Shown here in pieces: positions 13,780-62,352 of a stretch of DNA of 62,708 nt. Source of the stretch: an uncultured Parabacteroides sp. (GTDB lineage: Bacteria > Bacteroidota > Bacteroidia > Bacteroidales > Tannerellaceae); contig CASEMX010000011.1 of assembly GCA_949289155.1 (NCBI GenBank), forward strand, positions 1 through 62,708, read 5' to 3'. A program made the translations under genes and the position numbers. Below the pieces are notes generated by a model. It was not told where the DNA came from, made no database searches, and saw only the letters and a program-made list of their open reading frames with translations. The first letter of the stretch is position 1; every line of letters begins with the position of its first letter.

Positions 13780-13972
13780 GTTCATTAAGGAGATAACTAT
13801 CCGTTCATTAGTATATCTTCTATAATTCACGTCGTGGTTTATACAATTCACGTCGTGAATTATAGATTAGACAATAGTCTCCGGATAGTTTAGTCCTTAG
13901 TGAGGGAGGGTTTTCCTCCTTAGTGACCCACTGTTTTCTTCCGTAATGGTCCATTACCTTTCCCTATGGTGG
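13780..13972. repeat. Degenerate palindromic array (mainly 23-bp step) in a 408-bp gene-free stretch
   Basis: GTTCATTA lies at 13780 and 13803 (step 23). CACGTCGTG lies at 13828 and 13849 (step 21). TAGT cores lie at 13875, 13898 and 13921, with TAAT at 13944 (steps of 23). Most copies sit in small inverted repeats such as AATTCACGTCGTGAATT. There is no ORF. The array lies between the helicase gene and the iron-uptake operon. Confidence 0.6.
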
Positions 13973-14042
13973 ACTGAAGGCATACCTACATATAGGGAGC
14001 AGGCAGGGAATATGGGAGAGGCAAAATACCGAATAGAGGCGA

Positions 14043-14073
14043 TTGACCTGCCCCCCTATTCCCTCTACCTTTG
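14043..14073 (+). promoter_or_regulatory. Promoter of the TonB/DUF4374/PepSY operon
   Basis: TTG at 14043-14045, a 20-bp gap and TACCTTTG at 14066-14073 match the Bacteroidales promoter consensus. The ATG is 46 bases further on. An iron-responsive operator is expected, but I cannot recognise one. Confidence 0.75.
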
Positions 14074-14119
14074 CAGCGCAAATCTAAACAATGCATATAC
14101 ATTAAAACGAAGATAACGA

Positions 14120-16555
14120 ATGGACAACAGACACGCACTGACGCTCGCAGGACTCTTCCTGCTGACCTCTCTGCCGCCTGCATTGGGGCAAGGGTATGAG
14201 GCACTCGCCCACCAGCACGCTACCGAACAGAAAGCCCTGCTGAAGGGACGCATCCTGTCGCACGATAAGGAGCAGATTGACTTCGCTACGGTCTATCTGA
14301 AGGATACGCAATATGGGGCTATCACCGACGGAGAGGGGCATTTCCGGCTGGAGGCTCCGGCGGGGGAGTATATATTAGTGGTATCTGCGATGGGATTCGA
14401 GACGGTCGAACGCCCCGTGAAGCTCTCGCCCCGCCAGCCGGTCTCGGTGGAGTTGCGCATGAAGTCGCAAGCCATGGAGCTGGAGGCGGTCGAGGTGGTG
14501 TCCAGTGGCGTGAGCCGTGTGAAGCGGTCGGCATTCAATGCGGTGGCGCTCGACACGAGAGAGTTCGAGAACTCGACCAAGAGCCTCAGTGATGCCTTGG
14601 CAAAGACACCGGGCATGAAGCTCCGCGAGTCGGGCGGCGTAGGCTCGGACATGCAGCTGATGATGGATGGTTTCAGCGGGAAGCATATCAAGGTCTTTAT
14701 CGATGGCGTGCCGCAGGAGGGCGTAGGCAGCTCCTTCGGTCTGAATAACATACCGGTCAACTTCGCCGAGCGTATCGAGGTCTATAAGGGCGTAGTGCCG
14801 GTGGGCTTCGGGACGGATGCTATCGGCGGGGTGGTCAATATCATTACGAAGAAGAAGCGCGAGCGGTGGTTTGCGGATGCCTCCTATTCGTATGGCTCGT
14901 TCAATACGCATAAGTCCTACATTAACTTTGGGCAGACCTTCAAGTCAGGACTTACCTACGAGGTGAATGCCTTCCAGAACTACTCGGACAACGACTACCA
15001 TGTGGATGCCAACGTCGAGGTATTCAAGTTCAACCCCGACGGCTCGGTCTCTACCTATATCGATAACAGGAACAAGGTGCGGGTGAAGCGGTTCAATGAC
15101 ACCTACCACAACGAAGCGGTCATGGCGAAAGTCGGTGTGGTGGACAAGCCTTGGGCAGACCGGCTGATGCTGGGCTTTACCTATTCGCACATGTATCAGG
15201 AGGTACAGACCGGCGTCCGTCAGATAACGGTCTATGGCGACAAACATCGGCGGGGACACTCGCTCATGCCCTCGGTCGAGTACCGCAAGCGGGACCTGTT
15301 GACTCCGGGACTGGATGTAGTATTCACTGCCAACTACAACCGCAATGTGACTACCAATATCGATACCTCCTATTACCACTATAACTGGTACGGTGAACGC
15401 TACCGCATGAATACGCCGGGCGAGCAGAGCCGGCAGCATTCGAGGGCGGACAATGATAACTGGAACGGAACGTTGACCCTCAATTACCGTATCGGCAGGA
15501 TGCATACCTTCACCTTCAACCATGTGCTCAATGCCTTCCACCGCCGCAATACTTCACTCTTGGCAGAGGAGGAGGCAGAAGATGCCATCCCGAAGGAGAC
15601 CCGGAAGAACATCTCCGGCCTCTCCTACCGCCTCATGCCTACGGATAAATGGAACCTCTCCCTCTTCGGGAAGTATTACCATCAATACGTGGCAGGGCCG
15701 ATGGCGGAAGATGAGACACAGAGCAACTACATCCGTAAGGACCGGAAGGTGAGTTCGATGGGATATGGTGCGGCAGGTACTTACTTCGTCCTGCCGGAGC
15801 TACAGGCGAAGCTCTCGTATGAGAAGGCATATCGCCTCCCGACTATCGAAGAGATGTTCGGCGACGAGGACCTTGAGATGGGCGACCTCTCCATACGGCC
15901 GGAGAACAGCAACAATATCAATCTCAATGTGAGCTATAACAAGACCTTCGGGCGGCATTCGCTCTATGTCGAGGGCGGATTGGTCTATCGTCATACGAAG
16001 GACTACATCCAGCGCAACATCACTGACCTGAGCGGAGGAAAAGAGGGCGCGACCTATATCAACTATGGCAAGGTGGAGACGAAGGGCTACAACCTCTCCC
16101 TGCGGTATGGGTTCGGCAACTGGCTCAGTGTGGGCGGCAACTTCACCCGTATGGATGTGCGCGACCGGCAGAAGGTGCAGCTGGGCACGACCACGGCGAA
16201 CCTCGCCTACGGAGCACGGATGCCCAACATCCCTTACCAGTTTGCCGACATGGACATCTCCCTCTTCTGGCACGACCTTTTCCGCAAGGGAAACACGCTG
16301 ACGCTTACCTATGACAACCAGTACCTGCATGGCTTCTCCTACTACTCCGAAGTGATAGGAAGCAGCAATGCCGACTATCTTGTACCCGACCAGTTTGCCC
16401 ATAATCTATCCCTCTCCTACAGCTTGGGGAAGGGGCGGTATAACATCTCGGTCGAGTGCCGCAACTTTACGGATGAAGACCTCTATGACAACTTCAGTCT
16501 GCAGAAGGCAGGGCGTGCGTTCTATGGCAAGGTGAGGGTCTATTTCGGGAATTAA
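14120..16555 (+). CDS. TonB-dependent outer-membrane receptor (XusA-like)
   Basis: The 811-residue protein has a signal peptide (ALGQG) and a carboxypeptidase-regulatory-like domain at about 40-115. The plug domain follows (SLSDALAKTPGMKLRE, VFIDGVPQEG, RIEVYKGVVPVGFGTDAIGGVVNI), then a 22-strand-type barrel ending in an aromatic residue pattern (FYGKVRVYFGN). It is followed by a DUF4374 lipoprotein and a PepSY membrane protein. This is the same trio as the XusABC xenosiderophore uptake system of Bacteroides thetaiotaomicron, so import of a ferric siderophore or haem-like ligand is likely. The exact ligand is not determined. A palindromic array separates it from the next gene. Confidence 0.88.
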   Translation: MDNRHALTLAGLFLLTSLPPALGQGYEALAHQHATEQKALLKGRILSHDKEQIDFATVYLKDTQYGAITDGEGHFRLEAPAGEYILVVSAMGFETVERPVKLSPRQPVSVELRMKSQAMELEAVEVVSSGVSRVKRSAFNAVALDTREFENSTKSLSDALAKTPGMKLRESGGVGSDMQLMMDGFSGKHIKVFIDGVPQEGVGSSFGLNNIPVNFAERIEVYKGVVPVGFGTDAIGGVVNIITKKKRERWFADASYSYGSFNTHKSYINFGQTFKSGLTYEVNAFQNYSDNDYHVDANVEVFKFNPDGSVSTYIDNRNKVRVKRFNDTYHNEAVMAKVGVVDKPWADRLMLGFTYSHMYQEVQTGVRQITVYGDKHRRGHSLMPSVEYRKRDLLTPGLDVVFTANYNRNVTTNIDTSYYHYNWYGERYRMNTPGEQSRQHSRADNDNWNGTLTLNYRIGRMHTFTFNHVLNAFHRRNTSLLAEEEAEDAIPKETRKNISGLSYRLMPTDKWNLSLFGKYYHQYVAGPMAEDETQSNYIRKDRKVSSMGYGAAGTYFVLPELQAKLSYEKAYRLPTIEEMFGDEDLEMGDLSIRPENSNNINLNVSYNKTFGRHSLYVEGGLVYRHTKDYIQRNITDLSGGKEGATYINYGKVETKGYNLSLRYGFGNWLSVGGNFTRMDVRDRQKVQLGTTTANLAYGARMPNIPYQFADMDISLFWHDLFRKGNTLTLTYDNQYLHGFSYYSEVIGSSNADYLVPDQFAHNLSLSYSLGKGRYNISVECRNFTDEDLYDNFSLQKAGRAFYGKVRVYFGN

Positions 16556-16583
16556 CCCCGCAGGTATGAGGGGGAAACCTTCA

Positions 16584-16705
16584 CCACTGTCAAGGTGAAA
16601 ACCTCACCATGGTGAGGTCGGGGAGTTCACCATGGTCAGGTAGGGGGGGTTCACCATGGTCAGGTAGGCAACCTCGCCTTGGTGAGGTTCCGGCCTTCGT
16701 CGAGG
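16584..16705. repeat. Palindromic CCATGG array (23-bp step) inside the iron-uptake operon
   Basis: Cores start at 16584 (CCACTG), 16607, 16630, 16654 (CCATGG) and 16677 (CCTTGG), with steps of 23, 23, 24 and 23. The arms are CTCACC and GGTGAG or GGTCAG. The one 24-bp step contains a run of seven Gs. The array lies between the receptor and lipoprotein genes and would be transcribed as operon RNA, where it could form hairpins that set the relative expression of the two. Confidence 0.8.
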
Positions 16706-16782
16706 AGGCATTTCCCGACAGGGAGAGATGAATGATAATAATTTAATAAATAGTATATTAACGATAAACAAAGACAAACAAG

Positions 16783-18204
16783 ATGAAGAAGAACTATCTC
16801 TTGGCAGCATTGCCCCTTGTGGCACTTAGCTTTTTAGCATCCTGCAGCGATGACAACGACCCCGTACTGAACGGCGGAGGAACAACCCCGGTGGCGGAGC
16901 CCTTCTCCCGTTACATCGTGTCCACCTCTACTACCGCATCGAGCAATACGGCACATACCCTGCTGACGGCTCAGGCGTTGAACAACGGGCAGGTATCAGC
17001 AGCCGGCAACGGACTGCTCAACGATGGCGCCTCCTACTGGATATACTACGGCGACAAGTACCTCTACGGGTTGCAGTATAACGACGGCAACGGCGGGACC
17101 ACCGCCTCCTATGTACTGAATGCCGACAGCACAGTGGAGAAGCGGAGCATCGAATATACCATCCGCCGATTCACCACCTACGGTATCTATGACCGCTATA
17201 TCATGACCTCTTCGACCGGCGACGGTCCTACCGAATGGGCAGACGAGAACGGGTACGTCCCGCAGTCCTTCCTGATATCCTATCTCGACGTAGAGGCGGA
17301 GGAATATACCACCAACGACACCCAGCAGGAGGCCTACCTCTCCGAGAACTTCCTCGGCAATGGAGAATATGTTACCCTCTCCGGTCTCCTCGAACATGAG
17401 GGCAAGATTTACTCTGCCGCCGTACCGATGGGACTGAGCCAGTACGGTTGTATGCAAAAGGATGAAGCCGGGAACTACCTATGGGTGCTGCCGGGCAATG
17501 AGGACCTCATCAAGACCGAGAGCGGAGGACAGGGAAGCGGCGCGTATGACAAAGATGAACTGCAATGGACGCAATATCCCAACGAGTGCTGGGTAGCGAT
17601 ATTCGACGACGAGACCCTCACCACCAAGAAGCTCATCAAGACCGATAAGATAAGCTATGCCGCAGGCCGGCGGAAGTCGCAGTACTACCAGATGATATGG
17701 GAGGCAGGCAATGGGGACGTCTATGTCTTCTCGCCCTCTTATGCCAAGACCATGGCCGATGTGCGCCAGCAGACCACACTGCCGGCAGGCGTAGTGCGCA
17801 TCCCCGCCGGAACCGAGGCGTTCGACGACTACTACTGCAACATCGAAGCGCAGAGCAATGGCAAGAGCTTCCTCCGTGTATGGCCTATCGCCGACGATTA
17901 CTTCCTGATGCTGATGTACGACCGACCGTTGACCGAAGAGGGCTTTGCCGCTACCGAGCTGGCTGTATTCAAGGCGGAAGACCAACAACTGACTTATGTG
18001 ACCGGTCTGCCTCAGTCGATAAGCGGCTTCGGCGATACTCCCTACGTGGAGAACGGAATAGCCTATATCGCGGTGACAACTACGGACGGCAACCCGGCTG
18101 TCTATGCTATCGACCCAGCGACGGCACAGGCATCAAGGGGACTGGAAGTAGATGCCACACAGATAACCGGCATAGGCAAGCTCACCTATAATCCAGCAGA
18201 GTAA
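16783..18204 (+). CDS. DUF4374 lipoprotein (XusB-like)
   Basis: The 473-residue protein has a lipoprotein signal peptide with the lipobox LASC, followed by an acidic SDDNDP linker that fits surface export in Bacteroidales. The remainder is a predicted beta-propeller-like DUF4374 domain with repeated aromatic/Gly units. It is the second gene of the operon, between a TonB receptor and a PepSY protein. In the XusABC system the corresponding lipoprotein captures ferric siderophore at the cell surface; that role is inferred here from family and context. Confidence 0.85.
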
Positions 18205-18205
18205 G

Positions 18206-18886
18206 ATGCGCCGGTTCATCCATCACCTCCACCTGTGGATATCCCTGCCGTTGGGCATACTCTTCAGCGTAATCTGCCTGACGGGGGCTATCCTCGTGTT
18301 CGAAGATGAAACACTCCAGCTGCTCAATCCCCATGTGGATATCTCCTCGATGAAGAAGCATGACCCGGCAAAGCGGGAACTGGCAGGCTACGGCTTTTTC
18401 CGTAATACCCTCCGCCTCCACCGCTGGCTATTGGACAGCCCTGCCAAGAAGGGAGAACGGACCCTCGGCAAAGAGGTCGTAGGCTATGGGACCTTAGCGA
18501 TGGGCGTGGTACTGACAAGCGGAGTTATCCTCTGGTGGCCCCGCAATCGGAAGGTACTGAAGAATAGGCTCACGGTGAGCTATACAAAGGGATGGCGCAG
18601 GTTCTGGTATGACAGCCACGTGTCGGTTGGGTTCTATGCCACGCTCCTGCTTCTGGTGATGTGTATCACGGGATTGGTATGGTCCTTCCCTTGGTGGCGC
18701 GAAGCCTTCTGGGCAGTGTTCGACTTCGTTCCCCCGGAAGAGCGGAAGCGGTTCCTCTACACGCTGCATACCGGATTATGGGGAGGGACTGTCACGCAAG
18801 TCCTCTACTTCCTCGCCGCACTGATAGGAGCAGCTCTACCCTTGACCGGGTATTACCTTTGGTGGAAGAAGCAGAGAAGACACTAA
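18206..18886 (+). CDS. PepSY-associated TM protein (XusC-like)
   Basis: The ATG begins one base after the DUF4374 stop, indicating translational coupling. The 226-residue product has four hydrophobic segments with conserved His-containing blocks (HHLHLW, LRLHRWLLD, DSHVSVGFYA, LHTGLWGG), characteristic of PepSY-TM inner-membrane proteins thought to act as ferric reductases. As the third gene of the operon it would reduce or release iron after import. It is short compared with many PepSY proteins, but no frameshift is apparent. Confidence 0.87.
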   Translation: MRRFIHHLHLWISLPLGILFSVICLTGAILVFEDETLQLLNPHVDISSMKKHDPAKRELAGYGFFRNTLRLHRWLLDSPAKKGERTLGKEVVGYGTLAMGVVLTSGVILWWPRNRKVLKNRLTVSYTKGWRRFWYDSHVSVGFYATLLLLVMCITGLVWSFPWWREAFWAVFDFVPPEERKRFLYTLHTGLWGGTVTQVLYFLAALIGAALPLTGYYLWWKKQRRH

Positions 18887-18888
18887 AG

Positions 18889-18970
18889 GATGAAGAACGA
18901 GGAATGAAGAATGAGGAATCATCGGCATCATCTCTTTGATTCTTCATTCTTCATTTTTACCTCTTCATTC
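18889..18970. repeat. Inverted ATGAAGAATGAGG repeats between convergent genes
   Basis: GATGAAGAACGAGG and GAATGAAGAATGAGG on the left face ATTCTTCATTCTTCATTTTTACCTCTTCATT on the right as reverse complements (the right side is spread over several short units). The structure probably acts as a terminator for the PepSY gene and the nitroreductase on the other strand. Confidence 0.6.
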
Positions 18971-18975
18971 CCTAC

Positions 18976-19614
18976 TTACTTATGCCCTACCGGATGATTC
19001 AAGAGCAATACCTGCGTACTCTTCAGCTTCAACTTCTGAGCCAGCTGCTCCTTATCCATCGAGGCACGTGGTACGGTAGCCAACCCTAAACCGGCACAAG
19101 CAATCGAGATATTCTCCGATACGATACCGGCATCCATCGCACCGATAAGGCGGTTCGCCTCGGTATCCCCTCCGCGCATCTTCGATAAATCACTCACCAA
19201 TACCAATACGACCGGCGCCTGCTTCACGAACGCTTGGGCGCCGCCGACGATACCCCGCAAGTCCTCCTGTACGACCGGAACAAGCTGCTGCCTCTTAGCG
19301 TCATACAGATAAGCCCCCGATGCCATGCAGACATAGATATCCACGTCCTGATAATTCAGTGCGCTCGGTGCTGTACGCATCCCCTTCTCCGGACGATTGA
19401 TGCCATTCGCCGCCCATAAGAGGTCGGACAGCTCCTGCGTGCTCAGTTCCTTGTCCGAATAGGTGCGGATAGATTGACGTTGGGCAAAAGCCTCCATCAC
19501 GGTCAGTCCTCCCTTTTGCGTAGGCGCATTCAAGGGAATAGGACTCAACTCCTGTGCAGCCACGCCACAACTCAAGGCGCAAGCTGCCAAAAACATAGTG
19601 ATAACCTTTCTCAT
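18976..19614 (-). CDS. Exported SagB/nitroreductase-like protein
   Basis: The start is taken at 19614 (MRKVITMFLAAC), giving a signal peptide ending near VAAQ; the longer open frame would overlap the rpsP terminator. The body is a nitroreductase-fold domain: FAQRQSIRTYSDKELSTQELSDLLWAANGI, then AGLGLATVPRASM and a C-terminal LLLNHPVGHK. Proteins of this SagB-like kind bind FMN. Export to the periplasm is unusual for flavin reductases but common in this Bacteroidales group. The function is unknown. Confidence 0.8.
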   Translation of the reverse strand: MRKVITMFLAACALSCGVAAQELSPIPLNAPTQKGGLTVMEAFAQRQSIRTYSDKELSTQELSDLLWAANGINRPEKGMRTAPSALNYQDVDIYVCMASGAYLYDAKRQQLVPVVQEDLRGIVGGAQAFVKQAPVVLVLVSDLSKMRGGDTEANRLIGAMDAGIVSENISIACAGLGLATVPRASMDKEQLAQKLKLKSTQVLLLNHPVGHK

Positions 19615-19683
19615 TGTCTTATGTATATATATATCCGCACGAAGATACATATTCTTCGGATAATAACTTGCAAAGGCAATAAC

Positions 19684-19718
19684 AAAAAAGGAGAGCCCCT
19701 TTCGGAGTTCTCCTTTTA
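19684..19718 (-). terminator. rpsP terminator
   Basis: The hairpin AAAAGGAGAgccccTTTCGGAGTTCTCCTTTT lies 19 bases after the rpsP stop on the minus strand and ends in a T-run there. Confidence 0.75.
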
Positions 19719-19736
19719 TTGTGGCTTGATGCACGA

Positions 19737-20273
19737 TTATTCTGCGCTTTCAGCCGGTGCTTCTTCAGTTGCAGCAGCCTCTTCTGCCTGCTTAGCAGCT
19801 TCGGCAGCAGCCTTTTCAGCTTTCTTCTGAGCTACAGCCTCTGCTTTAGCCTTGTTCACTTCCTTCTCAGCTTCCAAGCGAGCTGCCTTAGCAGCCTTCA
19901 AAGCCTCAACGTCTTTGTTCTTGATAGCGTCGAGGATAGCGACTTTCTTTTCTTTCCAAGCATTGAACTTAGCTTGAGCAGTAGCCTCGTCGAACGCACC
20001 CTTCTTTACACCGCCCAAGAGATGCTTCATCAAGCATACACCTTCGCGAGAAAGGATGTTACGTACAGTGTCAGAAGGCTGAGCACCTACTTGTAACCAA
20101 TACAAAGCTCTCTCAAATTTCAAATCTACTGTAGCAGGATTAGTGTTCGGATTATAAGAACCTATCCTTTCAATAAACTTTCCATCACGTGGAGCCCTGC
20201 TGTCTGCGACTACGATCTGATAGAAGGCATAACCTTTGCGACCGTGTCTTTGCAATCTAATTCTTGTTGCCAT
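19737..20273 (-). CDS. rpsP: 30S ribosomal protein S16
   Basis: The N-terminus ([41 protein letters not shown], read in parts) is the S16 signature. The usual domain ends near residue 80. An Ala/Lys/Glu-rich tail then extends to 178 residues, as in other Bacteroidota S16 proteins. S16 binds 16S rRNA early in small-subunit assembly. It stands alone with its own promoter and terminator. Confidence 0.97.
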
Positions 20274-20322
20274 TTTGAAATAATAATTTTATTAAGCTGT
20301 TTGTATTAGTAATTTTCGGGCG

Positions 20323-20354
20323 CAAAGGTAAGAAGTTTCTCTATATGTGCCAAA
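20323..20354 (-). promoter_or_regulatory. rpsP promoter
   Basis: On the minus strand TTTG (20354-20351), a 20-bp gap and TACCTTTG (20330-20323) match the consensus well, 50 bases before the ATG. Confidence 0.8.
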
Positions 20355-20363
20355 TGTTTCCCC

Positions 20364-20855: not shown

Positions 20856-20994
20856 ACTCTTTATCGTTATTATTATATGGTTCCGGCTGCAAAGCTATGA
20901 AAAAAGGAGTAGATAGGCATCAATCCGGAAGAAAAAATCTCCGTGCCCTTGTGCTTTTATCCTCTTCGCAGGAGACTCTCCCAACTCCCCTTCG

Positions 20995-21012
20995 GACAGT
21001 TACGTAACTGTC
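20995..21012. repeat. Outlying palindrome matching the 21.1-kb array
   Basis: GACAGTTACGTAACTGTC is a perfect 18-bp palindrome, identical to the last copy of the array at 21108-21219 but 114 bases before its first copy. Confidence 0.75.
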
Positions 21013-21107
21013 TTACAGATTTAATGGAAAAAATAATTGGGATTTTATTTGGCACTTCAAATATTTGTCCCTTTCTTTGCATATAGACACCCTCTAAACT
21101 CTCTTCT

Positions 21108-21219
21108 GGACACTTACGTATGTGTCCAGTCGACACTTACGTATGTGTCCCCCGGAGAGTTACGTATGTGTCCACTCGACACTTACGTATGTGTCCGACC
21201 GACAGTTACGTAACTGTCC
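21108..21219. repeat. Palindromic TTACGTA array (23-bp step) upstream of the HU-like gene
   Basis: TACGTA cores start at 21115, 21138, 21161, 21184 and 21207, all exactly 23 bases apart. Most units read GACACTTACGTATGTGTC. The last reads GACAGTTACGTAACTGTC, where both arms changed together. The array ends 58 bases before the HU-like start codon and lies between divergent genes, so it could be an operator region. Confidence 0.85.
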
Positions 21220-21277
21220 GGAGGGGAGTTTAGACAGAGATAAACCATTTCATTACTAACTTATAAATCAAATAGAT

Positions 21278-21781
21278 ATGGGAATACCGTACAAAATGCA
21301 GCGGAAGAAGAATCCGCAGAAGCGTACCGAGCCGGGAAAATGGTACGCTGTGCCTAAAACAGGGACGCCGGTAGAAGACAAAGTGATGTCGCGCATGGCT
21401 ACGGCAGACACTACCGTAGCTGACTTCGAGTTAGAAGGCTCGGCAAAGCTTATCTCTAAATGGCTTTATACACAGTTTATGAATGGGAAACGTGCCAGAG
21501 TGCCGGGCTTGGGTACGTTCCGTATTACCTTTGGCAGCGAGGGCGTAGATGATATCCGCGATTTCCACACAGGCTTGATTCGGAATGTCAAAATTGCCTT
21601 TATCCCAGATTCCGACTTGCGCGACAAAGTGCTGCAAGACATCACTTTCGAGAACGCAGGTGTAGAGGAAGATGGCGTTTACTATGGCTCATTAGAGAAT
21701 TATAAGCAGGTGAAAGGCCTGACCGATTCTCCGGCTGAACCCGATGATGAGGAAGGGGAACAGGGTATCCCGAACCCTTAA
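21278..21781 (+). CDS. HU-like DNA-binding protein with acidic tail
   Basis: The 167-residue protein has an HU/IHF-like core at about 5-125 (KVMSRMATADTTVADFELEGSAKLISKWL, then MNGKRARVPGLGTFRITFGSEGV) of the Bacteroidales-expanded HU clade (HU-HIG type). The DNA-gripping beta arms are modified compared with classical HU. The last 20 residues are acidic and end in EQGIPNP. The downstream HU-like gene at 30477 ends in a very similar tail. The gene stands alone between a 23-bp palindromic array and a terminator. DNA binding is inferred from the fold; the binding site is unknown. Confidence 0.85.
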   Translation: MGIPYKMQRKKNPQKRTEPGKWYAVPKTGTPVEDKVMSRMATADTTVADFELEGSAKLISKWLYTQFMNGKRARVPGLGTFRITFGSEGVDDIRDFHTGLIRNVKIAFIPDSDLRDKVLQDITFENAGVEEDGVYYGSLENYKQVKGLTDSPAEPDDEEGEQGIPNP

Positions 21782-21813
21782 TAAACGGGAAGTTGAGAAT
21801 TGAAGATTGAGAC

Positions 21814-30150: not shown

Positions 30151-30289
30151 ACGCCGCCTCCCTCTCCCGCCCCTTTTTTCCGGGAAACATGTTGCACAAC
30201 ATATAAAAAGTACTTGACAAGACTGCCCTCGGAGTAGTATATTTGTACCGAACGGGAGATATTCCCGCCCTGCGATAGTGGAGAGGGGG

Positions 30290-30395
30290 CTCCCATAGGT
30301 GCATGGGAGGGGTCTCCCATAGGTAATGGGGAGGGTCAGCCCATATAGGCATGGGAGGGTGCTCCCATAGGTAATGGGGAGGGGTCTCCCATGGA
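30290..30395. repeat. Palindromic CCCATAGGTAATGGG array (24-bp step) upstream of the second HU-like gene
   Basis: CCC anchors lie at 30292, 30316, 30340, 30364 and 30388, each exactly 24 bases apart. Each unit is a CCCAT...ATGGG hairpin with a short AGGTA-type loop, except that the last unit is truncated to CCCATGG. The array ends about 82 bases before the start of the HU/DUF4469 gene. Confidence 0.85.
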
Positions 30396-30476: not shown

Positions 30477-31256
30477 ATGGCAAATACTGAGATTAAACAC
30501 CAGTTAAATGTACAGAGCATGGACAATCCCTTAGCTAAGGAAAAGGGGGAGAAAAGGTTTGTATTGATACCTAATGGTATAGCTGACTTCAACCGCGTCA
30601 TAGCTGAAATGATGGCAGTCAACCCGGGTTTCGAACGGGAGATTGTAGAGGCTGTGGTTAAGTTGGAGCACCGCACCATACAGCGTCTCACGCTGAGCGG
30701 TATGCGGGTATCTAATGGGCTGTTTACAGCTGTTGCATCGCCTAAGGGTCGCGCAGGTGCGTCATGGGACCCTTCGGTCAATCAGTTGAATATTACTATT
30801 TCACAAGGCGCCAGCTGGCGTGAGGCTATACGGAATACGACGGTGAACGTGGTTGGGGATAAGTCGGAGGTAATGTATATCAGCAATGTGATAGACGTAT
30901 CTACCCAGTCGACCGACCGTACGGCTACCGTGGGCTATCCTTTCTTTGTGGAGGGGAATTACCTGAAGATTGCGGGTGAGGACCCAAGTGTGGGCATATT
31001 CCTTATCAACGGGGAGGACGAGGAGACGCGTATAGATGCGAGCATGATTGTGATAAACGAACCGAAGAAGCTGGCGTTCATCCTACCGAGTACGCTGGCG
31101 GTGGGCGCATATACGCTGCGTATCGTGTCACAATACAGCAGTCATGGCAAGCTCGTCAAGACGCCTCATGCGGTAGAGACCCAGATTAATGTGGTTGCCC
31201 CCGCTACTTCACCGGAGGAGGAGGAGGGTGAAGAGGAAGGTGTACCGCACCCATAA
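30477..31256 (+). CDS. HU-like/DUF4469 protein (HU-Ig type)
   Basis: The 259-residue protein has an N-terminal HU/IHF-like domain at about 1-125 (MDNPLAKEKGEKRFVL, ADFNRVIAEMMAVNPGFEREIVEAVVKLEHRTIQRLTLSG). An Ig-like DUF4469 domain at about 140-240 follows (YPFFVEGNYLKIAGEDPSVGIFLI and FILPSTLAVGAYTLRIVSQYS). The acidic tail ends GEEEGVPHP. HU domains fused to Ig or winged-helix modules are strongly expanded in Bacteroidota and have been proposed to recognise foreign or structured DNA. It stands alone, downstream of a 24-bp palindromic array. Confidence 0.87.
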   Translation: MANTEIKHQLNVQSMDNPLAKEKGEKRFVLIPNGIADFNRVIAEMMAVNPGFEREIVEAVVKLEHRTIQRLTLSGMRVSNGLFTAVASPKGRAGASWDPSVNQLNITISQGASWREAIRNTTVNVVGDKSEVMYISNVIDVSTQSTDRTATVGYPFFVEGNYLKIAGEDPSVGIFLINGEDEETRIDASMIVINEPKKLAFILPSTLAVGAYTLRIVSQYSSHGKLVKTPHAVETQINVVAPATSPEEEEGEEEGVPHP

Positions 31257-31436: not shown

Positions 31437-31452
31437 ATTCAGGATGTAAATG

Positions 31453-31497
31453 ATAATAGTATATAGGTAAAATGGCATAATAGTATATAGGTAAATA
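31453..31497 (+). repeat. Two-copy 24-bp direct repeat upstream of ettA
   Basis: ATAATAGTATATAGGTAAA occurs at 31453 and again 24 bases later. It lies 18 bases before the ettA start, within the presumed leader. Confidence 0.7.
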
Positions 31498-31514
31498 GAT
31501 AAACGATAGAATGC

Positions 31515-39907: not shown

Positions 39908-40378
39908 TTCCGAGTCACTCAGAAGCTATGTTCGCCAAAAATTACCCCTTCTGAGTCACTCAGAAGCTATGCCACCCCAAAAACACTCCTTCTGAGTCAC
40001 TCAGAAGCTATGTCCGGCAAAAATTACTCCTTCCGAGCCACTCAGAAGCTATGTATTTTAAAAACTACCCCCTTCTGAGTGACTCAAAAGGCATGATTTT
40101 TAAAAGGTACTCTTTCTGAGTCACTCAGAAAGAGAAAAATTTAAAAACTACTCGTTTCGAGTGACTCAGAAGTGTCGAATTTTAAAAACCACCCTTTCCG
40201 AGTGACTCGGAGACACAAAATTTTAAAAACCATAGCTTCTGAGTGACTCAGAAGCATTTCCTTTTGAAAACCCTGCCTTCTGAGTGACTCGGAAGCATTT
40301 CCTTTTGAAAACCCTGCCTTCTGAGTGACTCAGAAGCACCCCTTTTCAAAAACCATCCCTTCTGAGTGACTCGGAAGG
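39908..40378. repeat. Twelve-copy palindromic array with 41-bp step
   Basis: A 19-bp palindrome CTTCTGAGTSACTCAGAAG recurs with centres at 39916, 39957, 39998, 40039, 40081, 40122, 40163, 40204, 40245, 40286, 40327 and 40368. All steps are 41 except one of 42. Copies 1-4 and 6 have C at the centre, the others G. Spacers of about 22 bases vary but keep a TTTAAAAAC/TTGAAAAC core. Some variants are paired (TTTCTGAG/CTCAGAAA in copy 6, CCGAG/CTCGG in copy 8). No cas genes are nearby and the spacers are related to each other, so this is not a CRISPR array. The stretch 39804-40470 holds no gene. Confidence 0.9.
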
Positions 40379-48223: not shown

Positions 48224-48418
48224 ATCGCTAAGTTCCTTTCTTTTTTTCTGTGATTAATAAATTCACTATCCCTATGCACAAACGCAATGCCAAAGGGAGC
48301 ATCATGCCATTTTGTCATCGGCGCCCTACTTTCTCCCACCCGAAGCCTGCCTTTCTGTCCCTTCCCTTCCTCCATTTTGTCTCCTTCATAGGGAGAGTCC
48401 GTTCCTTCCCCCTCGAAG

Positions 48419-48667
48419 AAAAGTTTAAATCCTGCCGAAGAAAAGTTGAAAAGTACGGCAGGAAAAGTTATCTTCTCCGGGGAGAAATCTTAAAACGCCT
48501 GTGGCGTTTATAAAAACGACACAGGCAATTGTAAAAACGCCACAGGCGTTTATAGAAACGACAGTGGCGTTTTGACTTTTCTACGGCAGGAAAGCAACTT
48601 TTCCTCCCGGTGTATTCAACTTTACGCCGGGAGGAATCCAACTTTTCTTCGGCGAGGAAGAAACGTT
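48419..48667. repeat. Nested palindromic array between clpB and mscL (22-bp outer, 21-bp inner)
   Basis: AAAAGTT occurs at 48419, 48441 and 48463 with a degenerate copy at 48485 (22-bp steps). Then four ACG-anchored units with CGCC/GGCG palindromes lie at 48495, 48516, 48537 and 48558 (21-bp steps). Then the inverted form AACTTT lies at 48573, 48595, 48617, 48639 and 48661 (22-bp steps, the first and last degenerate). So a 21-bp array sits inside an inverted pair of 22-bp half-arrays. The 48224-48764 stretch has no gene. Confidence 0.8.
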
Positions 48668-55242: not shown

Positions 55243-55257
55243 TTTTTTTGATAGTCA

Positions 55258-55293
55258 GGAGTTGGTAATTGGCAGTTTGTCATTACCAACTCC
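55258..55293. terminator. Hairpin between gltX and waaA
   Basis: GGAGTTGGTAAT and ATTACCAACTCC form a perfect 12-bp stem. There is no long T-run downstream, so partial termination or processing is possible. Confidence 0.65.
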
Positions 55294-55317
55294 CATTTTC
55301 ACCCCCACACAAACAAC

Positions 55318-56562: not shown

Positions 56563-56578
56563 TGAACTTCAAAAATCG

Positions 56579-56622
56579 TTTTAAAGCTCTTCCGAGTGGT
56601 CGGGAGGGCTTTAAAACTTTTT
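56579..56622 (+). terminator. waaA terminator
   Basis: TTTTAAAGC and GCTTTAAAA arms with an inner CTTCC/GGGAGG pairing, then CTTTTTT. Confidence 0.8.
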
Positions 56623-56652
56623 TATCCCTCAAATAAAACCTCAAAAATGTCT

Positions 56653-56870
56653 CCCCACTCGTGGGATTCCATTCCCGTTAACATTTTTATATTTCCCCAC
56701 TCTGGGGTTTTATTTCCATTAACACGGAAATGATTTCCCACTTGTGGGATTCCATTTCTGTTAACATTTTTATATTTCCCCACTTTGGGTTTTTATTTCT
56801 GTTAACACGGAAATGATTTTCCACTCGTGGGGAGCTATTTCCAAGACCTTTTTAGTCTTTCCCCACGATT
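56653..56870. repeat. Palindromic CCCACtcgTGGG array (41-42-bp step)
   Basis: CCCAC anchors at 56654, 56696, 56737, 56779, 56820 (TCCAC) and 56862; steps are 42, 41, 42, 41, 42. Between them lies a second motif (GTTAACATTTTTAT or ATTAACACGGAAATG), so the unit is a pair of alternating palindromes with a higher-order period of about 83. It lies in the 594-bp gene-free stretch between convergent waaA and the permease gene. Confidence 0.8.
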
Positions 56871-57096
56871 TAGATATGATTTCCAATATCCAAAAAATAG
56901 CCCTGAAATAGTTCAATCTTATTTCCGAACCTTCGGAAACATTTCTGCACTTGTACAATTTCATTTCTGAACCCTCGGAAATGTTTTCGTACTTGTGCAA
57001 TCTTATTTCCGAACCCTCGGAAACGTTTCCGCACTTGTACAATTTGATTTCCGAACCCTCGGAAATGTCTCTGAACTATTTCAGTCCTATTTCCGG
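56839..57096. repeat. Palindromic TTTCCGAacccTCGGAAA array (42-bp step)
   Basis: TTCC anchors at 56839, 56881, 56923, 56965 (TTCT), 57007, 57049 and 57091, all exactly 42 bases apart. A second palindrome GCACTTGTAC alternates halfway, in one unit reading GTACTTGTGC (its near reverse complement). The array directly abuts the previous one with a different motif. Confidence 0.85.
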
Positions 57097-57100
57097 CAAT

Positions 57101-57132
57101 AAAAAAAGGCCTCCGGAATAGTCCGAAAGCCT
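57101..57132 (-). terminator. Terminator of the export operon
   Basis: On the minus strand AGGCTTTCGGACTATTCCGGAGGCCT is followed by seven Ts, 24 bases after the permease stop. Confidence 0.85.
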
Positions 57133-57156
57133 TCGCCTCTGTCTTCTGAAGCGTTT

Positions 57157-58383
57157 TCAGTTTTGCGCCTGCTCTGCCAACAGCCTTTTCTTGCTGCTGA
57201 TAATCTGATGGCGGTAAACCAAGCAGGCGGTGATGAAATAGACACCGGTCTGAACCCATAAAACACGATAGAAATGTTCGACCTCATTCAGCGTCGCCCC
57301 CATCGAATTGATTCCCACGAATCCCTGAATCCCGGCGGTCGATGGGAAGAGGTAACCCAGCGCTTTCCAAAAGGGCGGGACGGCTGACATGGGCCACGAG
57401 ATGCCGGAAATAAAGACCAGAATGACCGAAGTGAAGACGAACAGCAACATCGGCGCCTCGCGGTCCCGCACGAAACCGCTGAGCGTAATGGAAAAGAAAA
57501 TGCACGCCAGCAAATAGGGCAGCAGGAACAGGAGCAAATCCATGGGACGGCCTATCTGCGGCAGCGAAAAGAGATGCGGCACGATGACCAGCACCCAAAG
57601 GCAGACCACGACATAAATCAGCAGGTAAGCGAAACTCTTTCCGAGGACAATGCGCAACGTTCCGTTGAAATGCTCGGTTATCGGAACCAACAGATGGAAG
57701 CTGTTTTTCTCTCGCGCCGTGCCTCCCGCCATGCCGATACCCAGTATCAAGGTCTGCTGGATAACCAAAATCAAAATGGCAGGGACCAAGAAACTGGCAA
57801 AACCGTTCTGCGGATTAAAGAGCACCACCGATTCGGAAGGGATAGGCTGCACCGCAATCTCCTGCAACTGTCCGCTCGACTGCGGATGGTTCCGCGCGGT
57901 CCATTCCGCCCCCATATCCAGCGATACCTCCGTCGCCGTCAGCAAAAATGCCTTGTAATAAAGCAACGCGCTCATATCGCAATAGAGCGAAACAGTCGCC
58001 TGACGCCCGGCGTGCATATCCTTGCTGAAATCTGAAGGAATCAGCAAGATACCGAATGCCTCCTTCGCATCGACGCAATGCTTTGCAGCCGACATATCCT
58101 CTACACGCTGCACGACCTGAACCTCCGAAGAGGCATCGATACGCCGCGCAAACTCGCGGCTCAACGGCGAATCGCATTGGTCCACCACGACCATCTTCGC
58201 TTCATGCACCACTTCATTATTATATATAAAGGAATAAAGCACCGGATAAGCCAACGGAACCAAGAAGAAGAAAATCATGACCCCTTCGTCTTTAAAGATA
58301 TGCTGCAATTCTCTTTTCCAGATATAAAACATATCCTCGATGCCCTCTCGGATGATATGGCTCAATTTGTATTCATCTTTCAT
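57157..58383 (-). CDS. ABC-2 type permease, second subunit
   Basis: The 408-residue membrane protein has one N-terminal TM, a large extracytoplasmic domain (about 60-185) and five or six C-terminal TM segments, with the ABC-2 motif GISWPMSAVPPFWKALGYLFP. It follows the similar permease by 13 bases with an AGGAGG site. Together they resemble the YhhJ/YbhS-YbhR type export permeases. No ATPase gene is present in the operon. Confidence 0.88.
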   Translation of the reverse strand: MKDEYKLSHIIREGIEDMFYIWKRELQHIFKDEGVMIFFFLVPLAYPVLYSFIYNNEVVHEAKMVVVDQCDSPLSREFARRIDASSEVQVVQRVEDMSAAKHCVDAKEAFGILLIPSDFSKDMHAGRQATVSLYCDMSALLYYKAFLLTATEVSLDMGAEWTARNHPQSSGQLQEIAVQPIPSESVVLFNPQNGFASFLVPAILILVIQQTLILGIGMAGGTAREKNSFHLLVPITEHFNGTLRIVLGKSFAYLLIYVVVCLWVLVIVPHLFSLPQIGRPMDLLLFLLPYLLACIFFSITLSGFVRDREAPMLLFVFTSVILVFISGISWPMSAVPPFWKALGYLFPSTAGIQGFVGINSMGATLNEVEHFYRVLWVQTGVYFITACLVYRHQIISSKKRLLAEQAQN

Positions 58384-58396
58384 GTCTCCTCCTTTC

Positions 58397-59575
58397 TCAT
58401 GGAATATAGTTCAAATGAAGCAATGCCCGTTTCAGATTCTTCCCGACCAAGAACGGAAGGATTAAGAAACCCAGCAGCCATACATACTCGCTCCATGTAT
58501 AGAACAAATCACGGCCATTCAATGCTTGGTCCACATAAATCAGGAAATAATGCCTCAGCGGAAACAATCGCCCCAAGGCTTGCAACGTCGGGTCCATTGC
58601 CGGCAACGGATACGAGAATCCGACTATCGAAAAAGAAATCATCCCGAACAGGCAGGCGAAACTCAGACCCAACCGCAAGGTCGGCAACACACTAATCATG
58701 AACACCCCGACCGCCTGCGACGCTACAATCAGTAAAAACACAGCCGCCAGCATCGGCAACCATCCGCTCTGCAACGGAAAAGCATTAAAACTATACAACG
58801 TCACACACATCAGCACCCCAATCAACGTGAAGATGACCGTCTGCGGAAGCAATTTCCCTATCAAACTGACCAGCAGCGAATCTTTTCCCATGCCTAACCA
58901 TTTGCGGGCAGTCCCGTACTTTATCTCCGTCCCGATGCTGAATACCGTAATCATAAAGACGACCAACTGCAACACTCCGGGAAGCAGCGTATTGTTCAAG
59001 TAAATAGAATAATTCAGCCACGGATTCCCAATCGCGTGCGTATCGATGACTATCGGCTGCAACTGCCCCATGATAGCCGACTCGGTCATGCCTTTTGCCG
59101 TACCGGTCTGTAGTCCGACCGATGCATTTGCCAATACCGAAATCGTTTTCATATCCCGGAACAACAAAGAGGCAGCAATCAGATAGGAACCGTTCGTATA
59201 ATAAGAGAGTTTCGGTTGTTTCCCGGAAGTGGCTTCCTGTTCGAAATGCTCCGGGATATAGAATATTCCATAGATATTCCCTTTCTGCATCTCCTGCCGT
59301 GCCTCCGAGAAAGTATTCGTTTGCAACACGACTTGCGTTTGCTCGAAGGCATCGAGTTGGCGGACCAGCGTCCGTGACGTCGCGGAATTATCCAAATCGA
59401 CAACAGCTATCGGCAGATTGGTCGGCAACCCCTCGTGCATTAACGACAGGAAGAAAACCATCGAGATAACCGGCGCGACAATCATCCCGAAGAGATAAAT
59501 AGGCCGCGACATAATCCGAAGGGTTTCCCGCCGTGCAATTTGCCCAATACAATATATGGATTCACGTATTGTCAT
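58397..59575 (-). CDS. ABC-2 type permease, first subunit
   Basis: The start is taken at 59575 (MTIRESIY), with AAAGG upstream and 8 bases after the HlyD stop; a 10-codon extension would overlap that gene. The fold is as for its neighbour: N-terminal TM, extracytoplasmic domain (LPIAVVDLDNSATSRTLVRQLDA) and a six-TM C-terminal region with FSYPLPAMDPTLQALGRLFPLRHYF. The paired permeases likely form a heterodimer. Confidence 0.88.
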   Translation of the reverse strand: MTIRESIYCIGQIARRETLRIMSRPIYLFGMIVAPVISMVFFLSLMHEGLPTNLPIAVVDLDNSATSRTLVRQLDAFEQTQVVLQTNTFSEARQEMQKGNIYGIFYIPEHFEQEATSGKQPKLSYYTNGSYLIAASLLFRDMKTISVLANASVGLQTGTAKGMTESAIMGQLQPIVIDTHAIGNPWLNYSIYLNNTLLPGVLQLVVFMITVFSIGTEIKYGTARKWLGMGKDSLLVSLIGKLLPQTVIFTLIGVLMCVTLYSFNAFPLQSGWLPMLAAVFLLIVASQAVGVFMISVLPTLRLGLSFACLFGMISFSIVGFSYPLPAMDPTLQALGRLFPLRHYFLIYVDQALNGRDLFYTWSEYVWLLGFLILPFLVGKNLKRALLHLNYIP

Positions 59576-59583
59576 ATCATCCT

Positions 59584-60588
59584 TTACTTTTTGACAGGCT
59601 TCCAAATCACAGACATGCCCGGACGCAATCCCTCGACAGCCTGAACAGGACGGGCACGTACCTCGAATGTCTTCGCATCATATTGTCCGGTTGACTTCGT
59701 TGCCTTCCAAGCGGCATACGTTCCCATATCCTTCATATAATATACTTTCAAGGCTATTTCCTGATTTCCCAATGCCGGAACGAAAGCATGGATTTCATTC
59801 CCTATCCGTATCCCCGCCAACAAATCTTCGCGGATACTGAACGTCACCCACATATCCTCCATATTCGCAATATTCATAATCGGAGCGCCGCTGCCCACCA
59901 ACTCGCCAACCTCAGGGAAACGCTCTACTATCTCACCGTCAATCGGAGAAAGCAGCGCCTCTTCCTCTATATAGGATTCTACTTCCGCCACAGCTCCGCT
60001 CGCTTGATGAACCAATGCTTCCGCAGCGGCTTTATCCTCTTGGCGCGCTCCTTCCTTTGCCATTTCATACTGCGAACGAGCCGCCTTTTCCGTAGCCACC
60101 ATCGCGTTATAGTTCGCTTCCGCTTCATCCTTCTTCTGAGCAGACATTACGCCTTTTTCATATAAGTTACGCACCCGATTATAGGATTTTTCGGCAATCT
60201 CCAGTCCGGCTTTGGCCTTCTGCCACAATTCATACGCCGCCGTAACCTCTTGCTCTCTTGCACCCTTCATCGCCTTTGCATGTTGGGCTTCGGCAGCCGC
60301 CTTAGCCGCTTCCGCCTGCATCAGTTTGGCTTTTACCTCCGGTGTGTTCAGAAAGACCAACGTATCGCCGGCTTTTACTTTGTCTCCTTCTTGGAAACGA
60401 TAGGCCTCTATTCTACCCGGAACCTTTCCGGACACACGTACCGTCGTGGCTTCAGCCTGTCCCATCACAATCTCTTCGGCAGGTGTCAACAGGAAGAAGC
60501 CTGCCGCTGCAACCAATAACACAACCACCAATGTAGCTGCAAAAGCCAGCATCATATTGTTCAATGCATATTTCTTATTCTCTGACAT
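59584..60588 (-). CDS. HlyD family membrane-fusion protein
   Basis: The 334-residue protein has one N-terminal TM, lipoyl halves (VSGKVPGRIEAYRFQEGDKVKAGDTLVFLNTPEV and LSPIDGEIVERFPEVGELVGSG, read in parts) and a helical hairpin with many Ala/Glu/Lys residues. The C-terminal domain is YDAKTFEVRARPVQAVEGLRPGMSVIW. It is similar to YhiI/YbhG-type adaptors paired with ABC-2 permeases. It lies between the TolC-family channel and the permeases. Confidence 0.9.
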   Translation of the reverse strand: MSENKKYALNNMMLAFAATLVVVLLVAAAGFFLLTPAEEIVMGQAEATTVRVSGKVPGRIEAYRFQEGDKVKAGDTLVFLNTPEVKAKLMQAEAAKAAAEAQHAKAMKGAREQEVTAAYELWQKAKAGLEIAEKSYNRVRNLYEKGVMSAQKKDEAEANYNAMVATEKAARSQYEMAKEGARQEDKAAAEALVHQASGAVAEVESYIEEEALLSPIDGEIVERFPEVGELVGSGAPIMNIANMEDMWVTFSIREDLLAGIRIGNEIHAFVPALGNQEIALKVYYMKDMGTYAAWKATKSTGQYDAKTFEVRARPVQAVEGLRPGMSVIWKPVKK

Positions 60589-60637
60589 AGTATTTTGAGT
60601 TTTTGAGTTCTTTAGTTTGTTAGTTCTTTTAGCTTGT

Positions 60638-62020
60638 TTACTCCTTTAACGTTCCCAATGCCTTATTCAAATAAACGCGGGTCAACTTCATTTCTATCTG
60701 TGCATCGATTAAAGTAGAACGTGCCGATACCCATGCCGTCTGCGCTTCCATCAGATTCAAAGCCGGAATGACACCCTCTTCGAATCCGAAGTTCGCCCGG
60801 CGCAGGTTCTCTTCGGCATTCTCCATGTTCCGGTTCGAAGCAATCAGCTTCTTATTCGCTTCGTTCACCTTATAGACCGACTGGTTTACCTGCAGCTCTA
60901 TCTTCTCCCGTGCATCTTCCCATTCCAATTGCTTGATGCGCGTTTCCGCCCGAGCCGCATTCCGTTTATAAGTACCTTCCCACCAGCCTGTAATCGGTAT
61001 TCTTACAATAAATCCTAAATTGAACATCCCCCCGAAGTCATTCTTGAAGCCATTGAAAAGGTTCGGATTCGTCACCAAGTAGTTCGCCGAAAAAGCCACC
61101 GACGGCAACATATCCGCCAAGACTATCCGTTCCTTCTTCTTATAGATTTTCGAAGCCAAATCCAGACTACGCAATTCGCTCCGGTTCATAAACGCCTCGT
61201 TCACATCTGCCGCTACCGCTTCCGTACGGACAGGCAGGCTGTCCAAATCTTCATCTGCCAAACGCAACGGCTCATCCAGCGGCAAACCGCAAATCTGCGC
61301 CAATAACATACGCGACAGCGCCAGCCCGTTATCGACTTTCGTCTGCGTCATCTCGGCTTCGTTCAACTTAACCTTCACCGACAAGCCATCCGCTTCCGTC
61401 GCTACGCCCTCCGCAATCATCGCCGTAACATCTTCATCCATCTTCCGAAGCAATCCGACATAAGCATCCGCCAGCTTCTTCTTATTCACCAACGACACGA
61501 CCTGCCAATAGGTCTCGTCCGTCTTATAAAGCAAATCCTGCAACTGCTGGTCGTTCATCGAGATGGCCAACTCTTTCGCATATTCCGCTATTTGATTATA
61601 GGTAACAATCTTTCCGCCCATAAAGACCGGCTGCACCAAAGCAATATTCCCCAGCCAAATGTTCTGCACATCCAGATGCTGCACCTCACCCACGGCTCCG
61701 ACCGCCTGCTGAATAACGGGCAACTCTGCCAGCCCACCCAACGATGAAGCCAACGAACTGCTCAGTTGCCCCATGTCCAACAGATTCAAATCCTTTTGGT
61801 TCCACATATATGCGCCATTTGCCGACAACTGAGGGAAATATTTCGTCAACGCCGCTTTCTTTTCATAGCCTGCCACCTTTATCTTCTCGCCCGACACCTG
61901 CAGCTCCTTATTGTTCCGGACGGCCAAATCCCGGCATTCCTGCAAGCTCAACGATTGCTGCCCATAGGCGACCTGCCCGAAGAACAAACAGACCCAACAG
62001 CTTATTACTATCCTCTTCAT
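60638..62020 (-). CDS. TolC family outer-membrane channel (export operon)
   Basis: The start is taken at 62020 (MKRIVISCWVCLFF) with AGAAAG upstream; the longer open frame has no signal peptide at its start. The 460-residue mature-like protein has two OEP repeats with long helices (VKLNEAEMTQTKVDNGLALSRM, NANFGFEEGVIPALNLMEAQTAW-like). It is the first gene of a four-gene operon (channel, adaptor, two permeases). Upstream is a 9-copy palindromic array. Confidence 0.9.
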   Translation of the reverse strand: MKRIVISCWVCLFFGQVAYGQQSLSLQECRDLAVRNNKELQVSGEKIKVAGYEKKAALTKYFPQLSANGAYMWNQKDLNLLDMGQLSSSLASSLGGLAELPVIQQAVGAVGEVQHLDVQNIWLGNIALVQPVFMGGKIVTYNQIAEYAKELAISMNDQQLQDLLYKTDETYWQVVSLVNKKKLADAYVGLLRKMDEDVTAMIAEGVATEADGLSVKVKLNEAEMTQTKVDNGLALSRMLLAQICGLPLDEPLRLADEDLDSLPVRTEAVAADVNEAFMNRSELRSLDLASKIYKKKERIVLADMLPSVAFSANYLVTNPNLFNGFKNDFGGMFNLGFIVRIPITGWWEGTYKRNAARAETRIKQLEWEDAREKIELQVNQSVYKVNEANKKLIASNRNMENAEENLRRANFGFEEGVIPALNLMEAQTAWVSARSTLIDAQIEMKLTRVYLNKALGTLKE

Positions 62021-62162
62021 TACTTCTTTCTCTAAATTTATATACTCATAACAAACGAACCACAAAAGTTGTTTTCGGCACAAAGAAAAAATCACTCTCC
62101 CGGCACTTGCCATCTTCCCTACGGACAGATGGAAATTTGCTCCCGGACAAGCCGGAAAGTCC

Positions 62163-62352
62163 CTATCGTAGCGTTCGACAAGTCTATATCGTAGCGAGTG
62201 TTGCCTCTATATCGTAGCGACGAACCTCTCTATATCGTAGCGTCATCGGTCGCTACGATATAGACTTGTCAGCCGCTACGATAGGCAATTGTCAGGTCCT
62301 ACGATATAGACTTGCCGGGTTCTACGATAGGCAATTTTCAGATTGCTCGATA
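62163..62352. repeat. Nine-copy array (23-bp step) that inverts at its centre
   Basis: TCGTAGCG starts at 62166, 62189, 62212 and 62235. Its inverse CGCTACGA starts at 62251 and 62274, with variants at 62297, 62320 and 62343. Every step within each half is exactly 23. The forward halves read CTATATCGTAGCG, the inverted halves CGCTACGATATAG, so the whole array is a large inverted repeat centred near 62246. It lies between divergent genes. Confidence 0.9.

Follow-up and report, generated by a model that had tools for sequence, protein, structure and literature searches.

A preliminary description of the DNA presented above reported palindromes that recur in intergenic DNA at fixed steps of 21-24 bp or 41-42 bp, which raised the question of what these arrays are and what sets their step. 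The analyzed stretch of 62,708 nucleotides (the window) is the whole of contig C11 from a genome of 2.88 Mb in 75 contigs, and its ClpB has its closest relatives in Parabacteroides (88% identity). We refer to arrays with a 41-42 bp step as class A and to those with a 21-24 bp step as class B. The answer that we consider likely, from the sequence comparisons below, is that HU-family proteins bind cooperatively to the sites of the class B arrays, and that an array located in the leader of an HU-type gene probably represses that gene.

Two step classes of intergenic arrays

We have submitted to TRF the intergenic DNA of the window and of a 392-kb sample of the same genome (195 segments, 60.5 kb in total), with ten dinucleotide shuffles of this DNA as the null and 385 kb of coding DNA for comparison. 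The intergenic DNA contained 29 arrays with a step of 20-25 bp, 23 with a step of 40-43 bp and 11 with other steps, against shuffled means of 0.0, 0.0 and 0.2, respectively; the coding DNA presented one, two and six. The scan for a step excess over shuffled intergenic DNA that the preliminary description had called for thus revealed such an excess in the window and the 392-kb sample, and both proposed classes of intergenic arrays were confirmed. The step classes are real, and we consider the earlier reading of a geometric constraint on the step to be right.

In a related background of 400 kb from eight related genomes, the 22-bp step accounted for 12 of the 18 merged arrays, and steps of 21-24 bp made up 45 of 94 arrays at 80 ClpB loci from Bacteroidales and neighbors, indicating that class B is widespread. 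Class A appeared in only one of the eight background genomes (G009). The E. coli control gave one 21-bp row in one 50-kb stretch, a sample too small to lean on.

The features of the window are listed in Table 1. TRF recovered most of the dozen or so loci of the preliminary description, but lowering the score to 40 still gave no array at 9.96 kb or at 36.8 kb. At 31.45 kb, where a two-copy palindrome had been proposed, a 24-bp repeat was indeed present, but it was AT-rich and not palindromic. The directional boxes of the 62.2-kb array point forward on the left side of its center and backward on the right, forming one large dyad.

Table 1. Arrays and associated features (window coordinates unless a locus is named)
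Feature	Position	Strand	TRF step (bp)	Evidence and remarks
21-bp-step array, family of the contig 41 HU-HIG gene (L024)	13824..13864	.	21	81% over 57 bases, E 4e-11
24-bp-step array, family of six places	16604..16690	.	24	TRF and family search
Isolated unit of the 21.1-kb family	20983..21012	.		97% over 30 bases
23-bp-step array, GACACTTACGTATGTGTC-type, before HU-HIG gene	21109..21219	+	23	TRF; 59-169 bp ahead of start codon
HU-HIG family gene, 167 aa	21278..21781	+		PF18291, E 2.5e-16; 60.3 bits vs curated cut-off of 26.2
Bacteroidetes-type -7 box (presumed), TATATTTG	30238..30245	+		45 bp ahead of the 30.3-kb array
24-bp-step array, probable 5' leader of HU-type gene	30283..30392	+	24	TRF, position
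HU-type gene, HU-DNA_bdg and Ig-like DUF4469	30477..31256	+		PF14848 5e-14, PF14734 3.4e-26; not a PF18291 member
AT-rich 24-bp direct repeat, doubtful member	31448..31502	.	24	TRF; 2.4 copies, not palindromic
41/42-bp-step array, second class, no HU link; shared plan	39908..40377	.	41	TRF
Composite array between clpB and next gene, family of the contig 14 HU-HIG gene (L027)	48390..48572	.	21 (at 48.50 kb)	92.5% over 120 bases, E 1e-45, to L027 leader; inner 21-bp part 48503-48572 (TRF), outer AAAAGTT boxes ~22 bp apart (by eye)
42-bp-step array, second class	56654..56866	.	42	TRF
42-bp-step array, second class	56903..57095	.	42	TRF; relative at L016:8192-8432
23-bp-step array, family of 14 places	62165..62352	.	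23 (62.18-62.35 kb)	TRF and family search
Other 41/42-bp arrays of the shared plan	L002:1816-2122; L008:18842-19244; L011:8360-8751; L012:12885-13157; L015:4353-4650; L019:16185-16489			

Class B arrays are enriched upstream of HU-type genes

Both known HU-type genes of the window lie directly behind arrays. The gene at 21278 belongs to the HU-HIG family (Pfam PF18291), reportedly described by Burroughs et al. in 2017, and the one at 30477 has the HU-DNA_bdg/DUF4469 architecture. We have therefore compiled the HU-type genes of the same genome by profile search with PF18291 and PF14848, which returned 21 distinct genes. An array (TRF score ≥50, period 20-25) was found at most 400 bp upstream of 13 of these genes and downstream of two, whereas 301 background genes of this genome had 32 upstream and 24 downstream (P about 7e-8 by Fisher's test, after removal of two HU genes from the background count). 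One of the 13 positives (L026) has an AT-rich, doubtful array. For PF18291, 16 of the 19 matches in this genome were above the curated cut-off; nine of the 14 control genomes, among them E. coli, also gave matches to this profile, and the 21 genes therefore probably include some plain HU. Genomes of the same genus differed in their number of PF18291 matches, with 43-54 in G004, G019, G022 and G024 versus 4-8 in several others, so that HU-HIG has undergone a strong expansion in some Parabacteroides.

The association was then evaluated in relatives (here and in later tests, TRF score ≥55, period 21-24), using 22 best-hit loci and 60 more chosen by coordinate and open-frame length, with their upstream DNA then unseen. 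Genes coding for long HU-HIG proteins (190-234 aa) had an array upstream in 30 of 51 cases and downstream in none. The corresponding counts were one upstream and three downstream for 31 short genes, and 10 upstream and 13 downstream for 259 background genes. The step in the long leaders was 22 bp in 37 of 38 TRF rows and 23 bp in the other.

Taking this genome and its relatives together, 35 of the 56 genes of 190-234 aa presented a TRF array (38 of the 60 genes of at least 190 aa, minus three longer than 234 aa). Seventeen of the remaining 21 gave a significant signal at lags of 21-24, a test that alone is not specific, since 15 of 43 short genes also reached P 0.05. With TRF and weak arrays combined, an upstream array was present in 52 of the 56 long genes. 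Other families of the order had an array upstream at 11 of 24 loci and downstream at three; by gene length, the upstream arrays were found in 9/16 long, 2/3 intermediate and 0/5 short genes.

We found no description of a cognate DNA element for HU-HIG in the literature searched, largely outside subscription journals, nor of such arrays in that on the HU/IHF superfamily and on Parabacteroides palindromic repeats.

Leader arrays lie just behind a promoter-like box

Leader boxes were called on TAnnTTTG, which we take to be the Bacteroidetes -7 motif. Array starts came from TRF, or from the lag scan where arrays were weak, and five of the 56 long genes were omitted owing to too weak a signal. A box was located 15-60 bp ahead of the array in 32 of the 51 leaders, whereas control intervals further upstream yielded 1, 0 and 1 of 51. 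Among 33 boxes, 21 were spaced 22-30 bp from the array. The array ended at a median of 63 bp from the start codon. With such spacing, the leader array would begin about 10-15 bp past the putative transcription start.

Most arrays belong to dispersed families

Each locus had been thought to carry a private palindrome. We observed instead that most arrays are members of small dispersed families, with units that are alike inside one array and no sequence relationship between families, those of this genome included. REP/BIME elements, for comparison, are defined by a single REP sequence used throughout a genome together with a RAYT transposase. The 21.1-kb array heads a family with four other multi-unit places on contigs 9, 42, 3 and 8 (77-87% identity). 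For the 48.4-kb array there were at least 10 relatives, its probable head included (40 of 80 candidates scored), and the 62.2-kb and 16.6-kb arrays had at least 13 and at least five (40 of 56 candidates scored); given these scored fractions, the family sizes are lower bounds. The 13.8-, 39.9- and 56.9-kb arrays have relatives within the 392-kb sample, where the 56.65-kb array had one 34-base match and the 30.3-kb array none, although by eye a motif similar to the latter precedes an M3 peptidase gene of the same genome (L354). Privacy holds per family, and often per HU-type gene.

Half of the non-leader class B arrays sampled from this genome (14 of 28) matched an HU-type gene leader within that genome. 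No such match was given by any of the 23 class A arrays or by the initial 200 bp of any of 68 array-free gaps. The other 14 class B arrays, with the 62.2- and 16.6-kb arrays among them, matched no HU leader. Counted from the leader arrays, further places numbered at least 11 for L021, at least 10 for L027, four for the 21.1-kb array and one each for L024, L037 and L032. For six of the 12 leader arrays, no additional copy reached E ≤1e-3 (40 of 80 candidates scored), although one of them, that of L022, did have one in the comparison of sampled class B arrays with HU leaders. Leader arrays with dispersed copies were also found in five further genomes, such as G016 (two leaders, eight dispersed copies each) and G012 (two leaders, at least 10 copies).

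We have also looked for HU heads of the 62.2-kb, 16.6-kb and CCCACnnGTGGG families, and none stood in promoter-array-gene order at the places examined. No HU-type gene was found beside the 16.6-kb family at its six places, and in the 62.2-kb family one member precedes a short HU-HIG gene on contig 45 by ~500 bp, a promoter-like box separating the two. The interval L003:9834-10166 gave a weak HU-profile match (E 0.02) and is absent from the PF18291/PF14848 gene lists.

None of 20 dispersed arrays (16 from G016, 4 from G012) showed the leader geometry, and the orientations of their flanking genes were mixed (-+ 8, ++ 5, +- 4, -- 3). A purely promoter role of the dispersed arrays was thus unsupported, which makes classical gene control no more likely than docking, chromosome folding or titration.

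As for class A, a link to HU was likewise unsupported (0/23 matches to an HU leader) and no partner protein was found. Its 41/42-bp arrays share a plan, namely a CTTCTG..CAGAAG-like dyad and a spacer with AAAAAC, with cores that differ per locus and a step that alternates between 41 and 42 bp. In the sample, 10 of 24 intergenic arrays of this class lie between convergent genes.

The repeat unit resembles inverted half-sites

Phased hairpins had been put forward as a possible basis of the step. We have examined three families (38, 21 and 29 units) and found mostly independent variation in the two palindrome halves. Dyad pairing was at or below the expectation under independence in many of the variable columns (0.45 vs 0.52, 0.41 vs 0.59 and 0.34 vs 0.51), with a few columns pairing above it (0.42 vs 0.28; 0.45 vs 0.37, the latter with 10 double changes in 31 units). 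The invariance of the core is partly built in, since its columns belonged to the unit-search pattern; outer columns that played no part in the pattern (for instance GA, positions 10-11) nevertheless hardly varied in two of the families.

Mismatches in the HU leaders did not discriminate clearly in favor of G:U, with 108 G:U vs 100 A:C over the whole dyad (P 0.63) and a weak lean at the unit level (74 vs 54, P 0.09). The sense strand folded better in 27 of 43 cases (P 0.09). The halves were also near independence in the cleaner class A arrays, with 31 G:U vs 29 A:C. Pooled class A pairing amounted to 571 against an expected 508, of 702, an excess explained at least in part by the centers having been picked by pairing. 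Mostly independent halves and the lack of a clear G:U bias disfavor hairpins, and a unit composed of protein half-sites in inverted orientation, spaced about 11 bp apart, would fit better than a stem.

Two further explanations are affected by these data. The arrays could operate as RNA, folding into hairpins within the 5' leaders of HU-type mRNAs and acting through attenuation, stability or translation control, as their leader position and the two leans at P 0.09 (unit-level G:U and sense-strand folding) would suggest. Yet neither compensatory pairing nor G:U tolerance was found, the dispersed copies lack the leader geometry and no Rfam match reached the gathering score in the window, so that we regard RNA leaders as quite improbable. 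The other explanation is that HU recognizes the shape of cruciform or hairpin DNA, the palindrome alone being what matters. HU binds junctions and bent DNA, which favors this possibility, and a study of the P. gingivalis HU protein PG0121 had a 77-bp inverted repeat in view (PMC3969353). However, pairing near or below independence at most variable columns, together with the nearly invariant outer GA in two of the three families, indicates that sequence is conserved more than pairing, making shape recognition very improbable.

Array positions are stable between sister species and turn over at larger distances

The dispersed arrays of G016 were compared with those of its sister genome G017, from which ten reverse-strand duplicate places had been dropped beforehand. 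Eleven of the 16 arrays aligned with an array at the same place, with no indel inside and no gain or loss of a unit. The other five corresponded to three arrays with no equivalent in the set of G017 array loci retrieved, one with a weak flank match and one cut by a contig end. Identity was 675/757 in the arrays and 2361/2691 in the flanks (one pair cut by a contig end included in the latter). Such conservation speaks against the copying mechanism that measures length, as proposed in the preliminary description.

The same alignments bear on the idea of neutral minisatellites generated by replication slippage, with a step set by the replication machinery. Slippage would yield copies that are alike within an array and families that are mutually unrelated, but the near confinement of the arrays to intergenic DNA, the constant unit number in the 11 aligned arrays and the nearly invariant columns across dispersed copies leave it with hardly any likelihood.

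Over larger species distances array positions turn over. In the gap before the M3 peptidase gene, a class B array was present in 4 of 21 orthologues (G019, G022, G024 and the genome of the window). The 17 others had no class B array (two of them, L350 and L352, with short upstream DNA), and one of these had a 42-bp array about 1 kb upstream. Two different array motifs, depending on the species, occupy this gap (L354 in the genome of the window vs L336-L338).

Relation to the BrickBuilt elements of P. gingivalis

BrickBuilt had been named as the nearest known relative, which proved to be a good lead. The published description (PMC4596501) presents the BrickBuilt/MITE464/PgRS elements of P. gingivalis as intergenic, with 23-, 22- and 41-nt repeats of unrelated sequence. 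Our arrays resemble them in their intergenic 23- and 41-nt steps, unrelated sequences and dispersed copies, and one P. gingivalis element adjoins clpB (PMC4596501), as does the 48.4-kb array. The shortest element, BrickBuilt_14 (84 nt), lies between PGN_0871 (-) and PGN_0872 (+), the latter coding for a PF00216 DNA-binding protein (PMC4596501, Table 1). By strand, it would thus be upstream of an HU-family gene, as our model predicts, which with 19 elements may be chance. In our own reading, the BrickBuilt consensus AGAYCATARTATCCTCTCRTRTG, taken circularly, would contain TATG-N4-CATA.

The differences are also clear. Many BrickBuilt copies have leader/tail arms and IS5-like ends, and their repeat number varies by strain (PMC4596501), whereas the Parabacteroides arrays showed no enrichment of such ends in the window and no unit change in the 11 aligned arrays. 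We counted 25 matches to the IS5-like ends in the window (≤2 mismatches) against 27 expected; none flanked an array on both sides, and one directly followed the 13.8-kb array. The BrickBuilt consensus had no exact match in the 406 loci searched. Arrays with a 23-bp step exist here, with other steps equally common.

The arrays might be MITE-like elements of the BrickBuilt/MITE464 kind, that is, non-autonomous transposons carrying minisatellites. The shared 23-, 22- and 41-nt steps of the 19 intergenic P. gingivalis copies, the dispersed families in this genome and its relatives and the position turnover at the M3 peptidase gap all agree with such an origin. It is opposed by the IS5-like ends not being enriched in the window and by the 11 of 16 positions common to sister species with arrays free of indels, and it leaves the fixed promoter-array-HU gene order unexplained. 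Overall, we consider a transposon origin unlikely.

Domains of the HU proteins behind leader arrays

A winged helix (PF08220) scored above the cut-off in two of seven long proteins scanned (L021 and L138), and the other five had weak or no HTH matches, none above the cut-off. By eye, most long C-termini show a winged-helix-like pattern. Several head genes code for proteins without a winged helix, those behind the 21.1- and 30.3-kb arrays included. A single-sequence structure model of an HU/winged-helix protein had a mean pLDDT of 35 and was unusable.

Array similarity increased from 0.42 to 0.75 with winged-helix identity (49 of the 56 genes; 0/500 permutations). It tracked the HU domain and the winged helix alike (partial values of 0.24 and 0.22), so descent alone could explain the covariation of array and protein.

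DISCUSSION

The arrangement that would account for class B is one in which HU-family proteins, mainly HU-HIG and above all the form combining HU with a winged helix, bind the arrays cooperatively. The unit would consist of two inverted half-sites of ~11 bp, one per helical turn, and each 22-bp step would accommodate one bound dimer on one face of the DNA, the step being kept to the base. A protein filament, one of the possibilities raised in the preliminary description, is accepted here as a candidate. Each paralogue would have its own half-site, with one array positioned immediately past the promoter of its own gene, within the 5' leader, where binding would probably repress by occlusion. Arrays of the same half-site scattered over the genome may serve as docking, target or titration sites.

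Several known systems offer comparisons. In MatP/matS, Noc/NBS, SlmA/SBS and ParB/parS, one protein recognizes a short palindrome that occurs at scattered positions, not all of them at promoters. The arrays share with these systems the scattered palindromic sites, some not at promoters, and differ in involving many paralogues, each apparently with its own site and with an array in its own leader, and in the exact 22-bp step of the arrays. Plasmid iterons are direct repeats, typically with autoregulation before their own gene. BldC is a filament-forming regulator that acts on periodic direct repeats (PMC5859096). The candidate binding described here would resemble that of BldC and iterons in the cooperative multimers on repeated sites; unlike those direct repeats, the half-sites alternate direction about every 11 bp. 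To HU-HIG itself the likeness is at the Pfam level, the proteins belonging to the same family (PF18291).

A broader and much more tentative proposal, to which we would give rather low odds, is that a Bacteroidales chromosome harbors many parallel, mutually private nucleoid systems. Paralogue filaments would form on their own 22-bp arrays at some 10 dispersed places, sense their own level through the leader array and be tuned by the winged helix, the step being set by the protein while the site drifts; the set would extend to BrickBuilt and the 41-42 bp arrays. If this were true, numerous site codes of the MatP or ParB kind would operate in parallel in one genome.

The arrays provide a candidate partner, readable from sequence, for many HU-HIG paralogues, turning minisatellites into predicted binding sites. 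The link to HU also suggests a testable reading of the BrickBuilt repeats, and the putative protein/site pairs may offer a means to study how specificity drifts under a fixed geometry.
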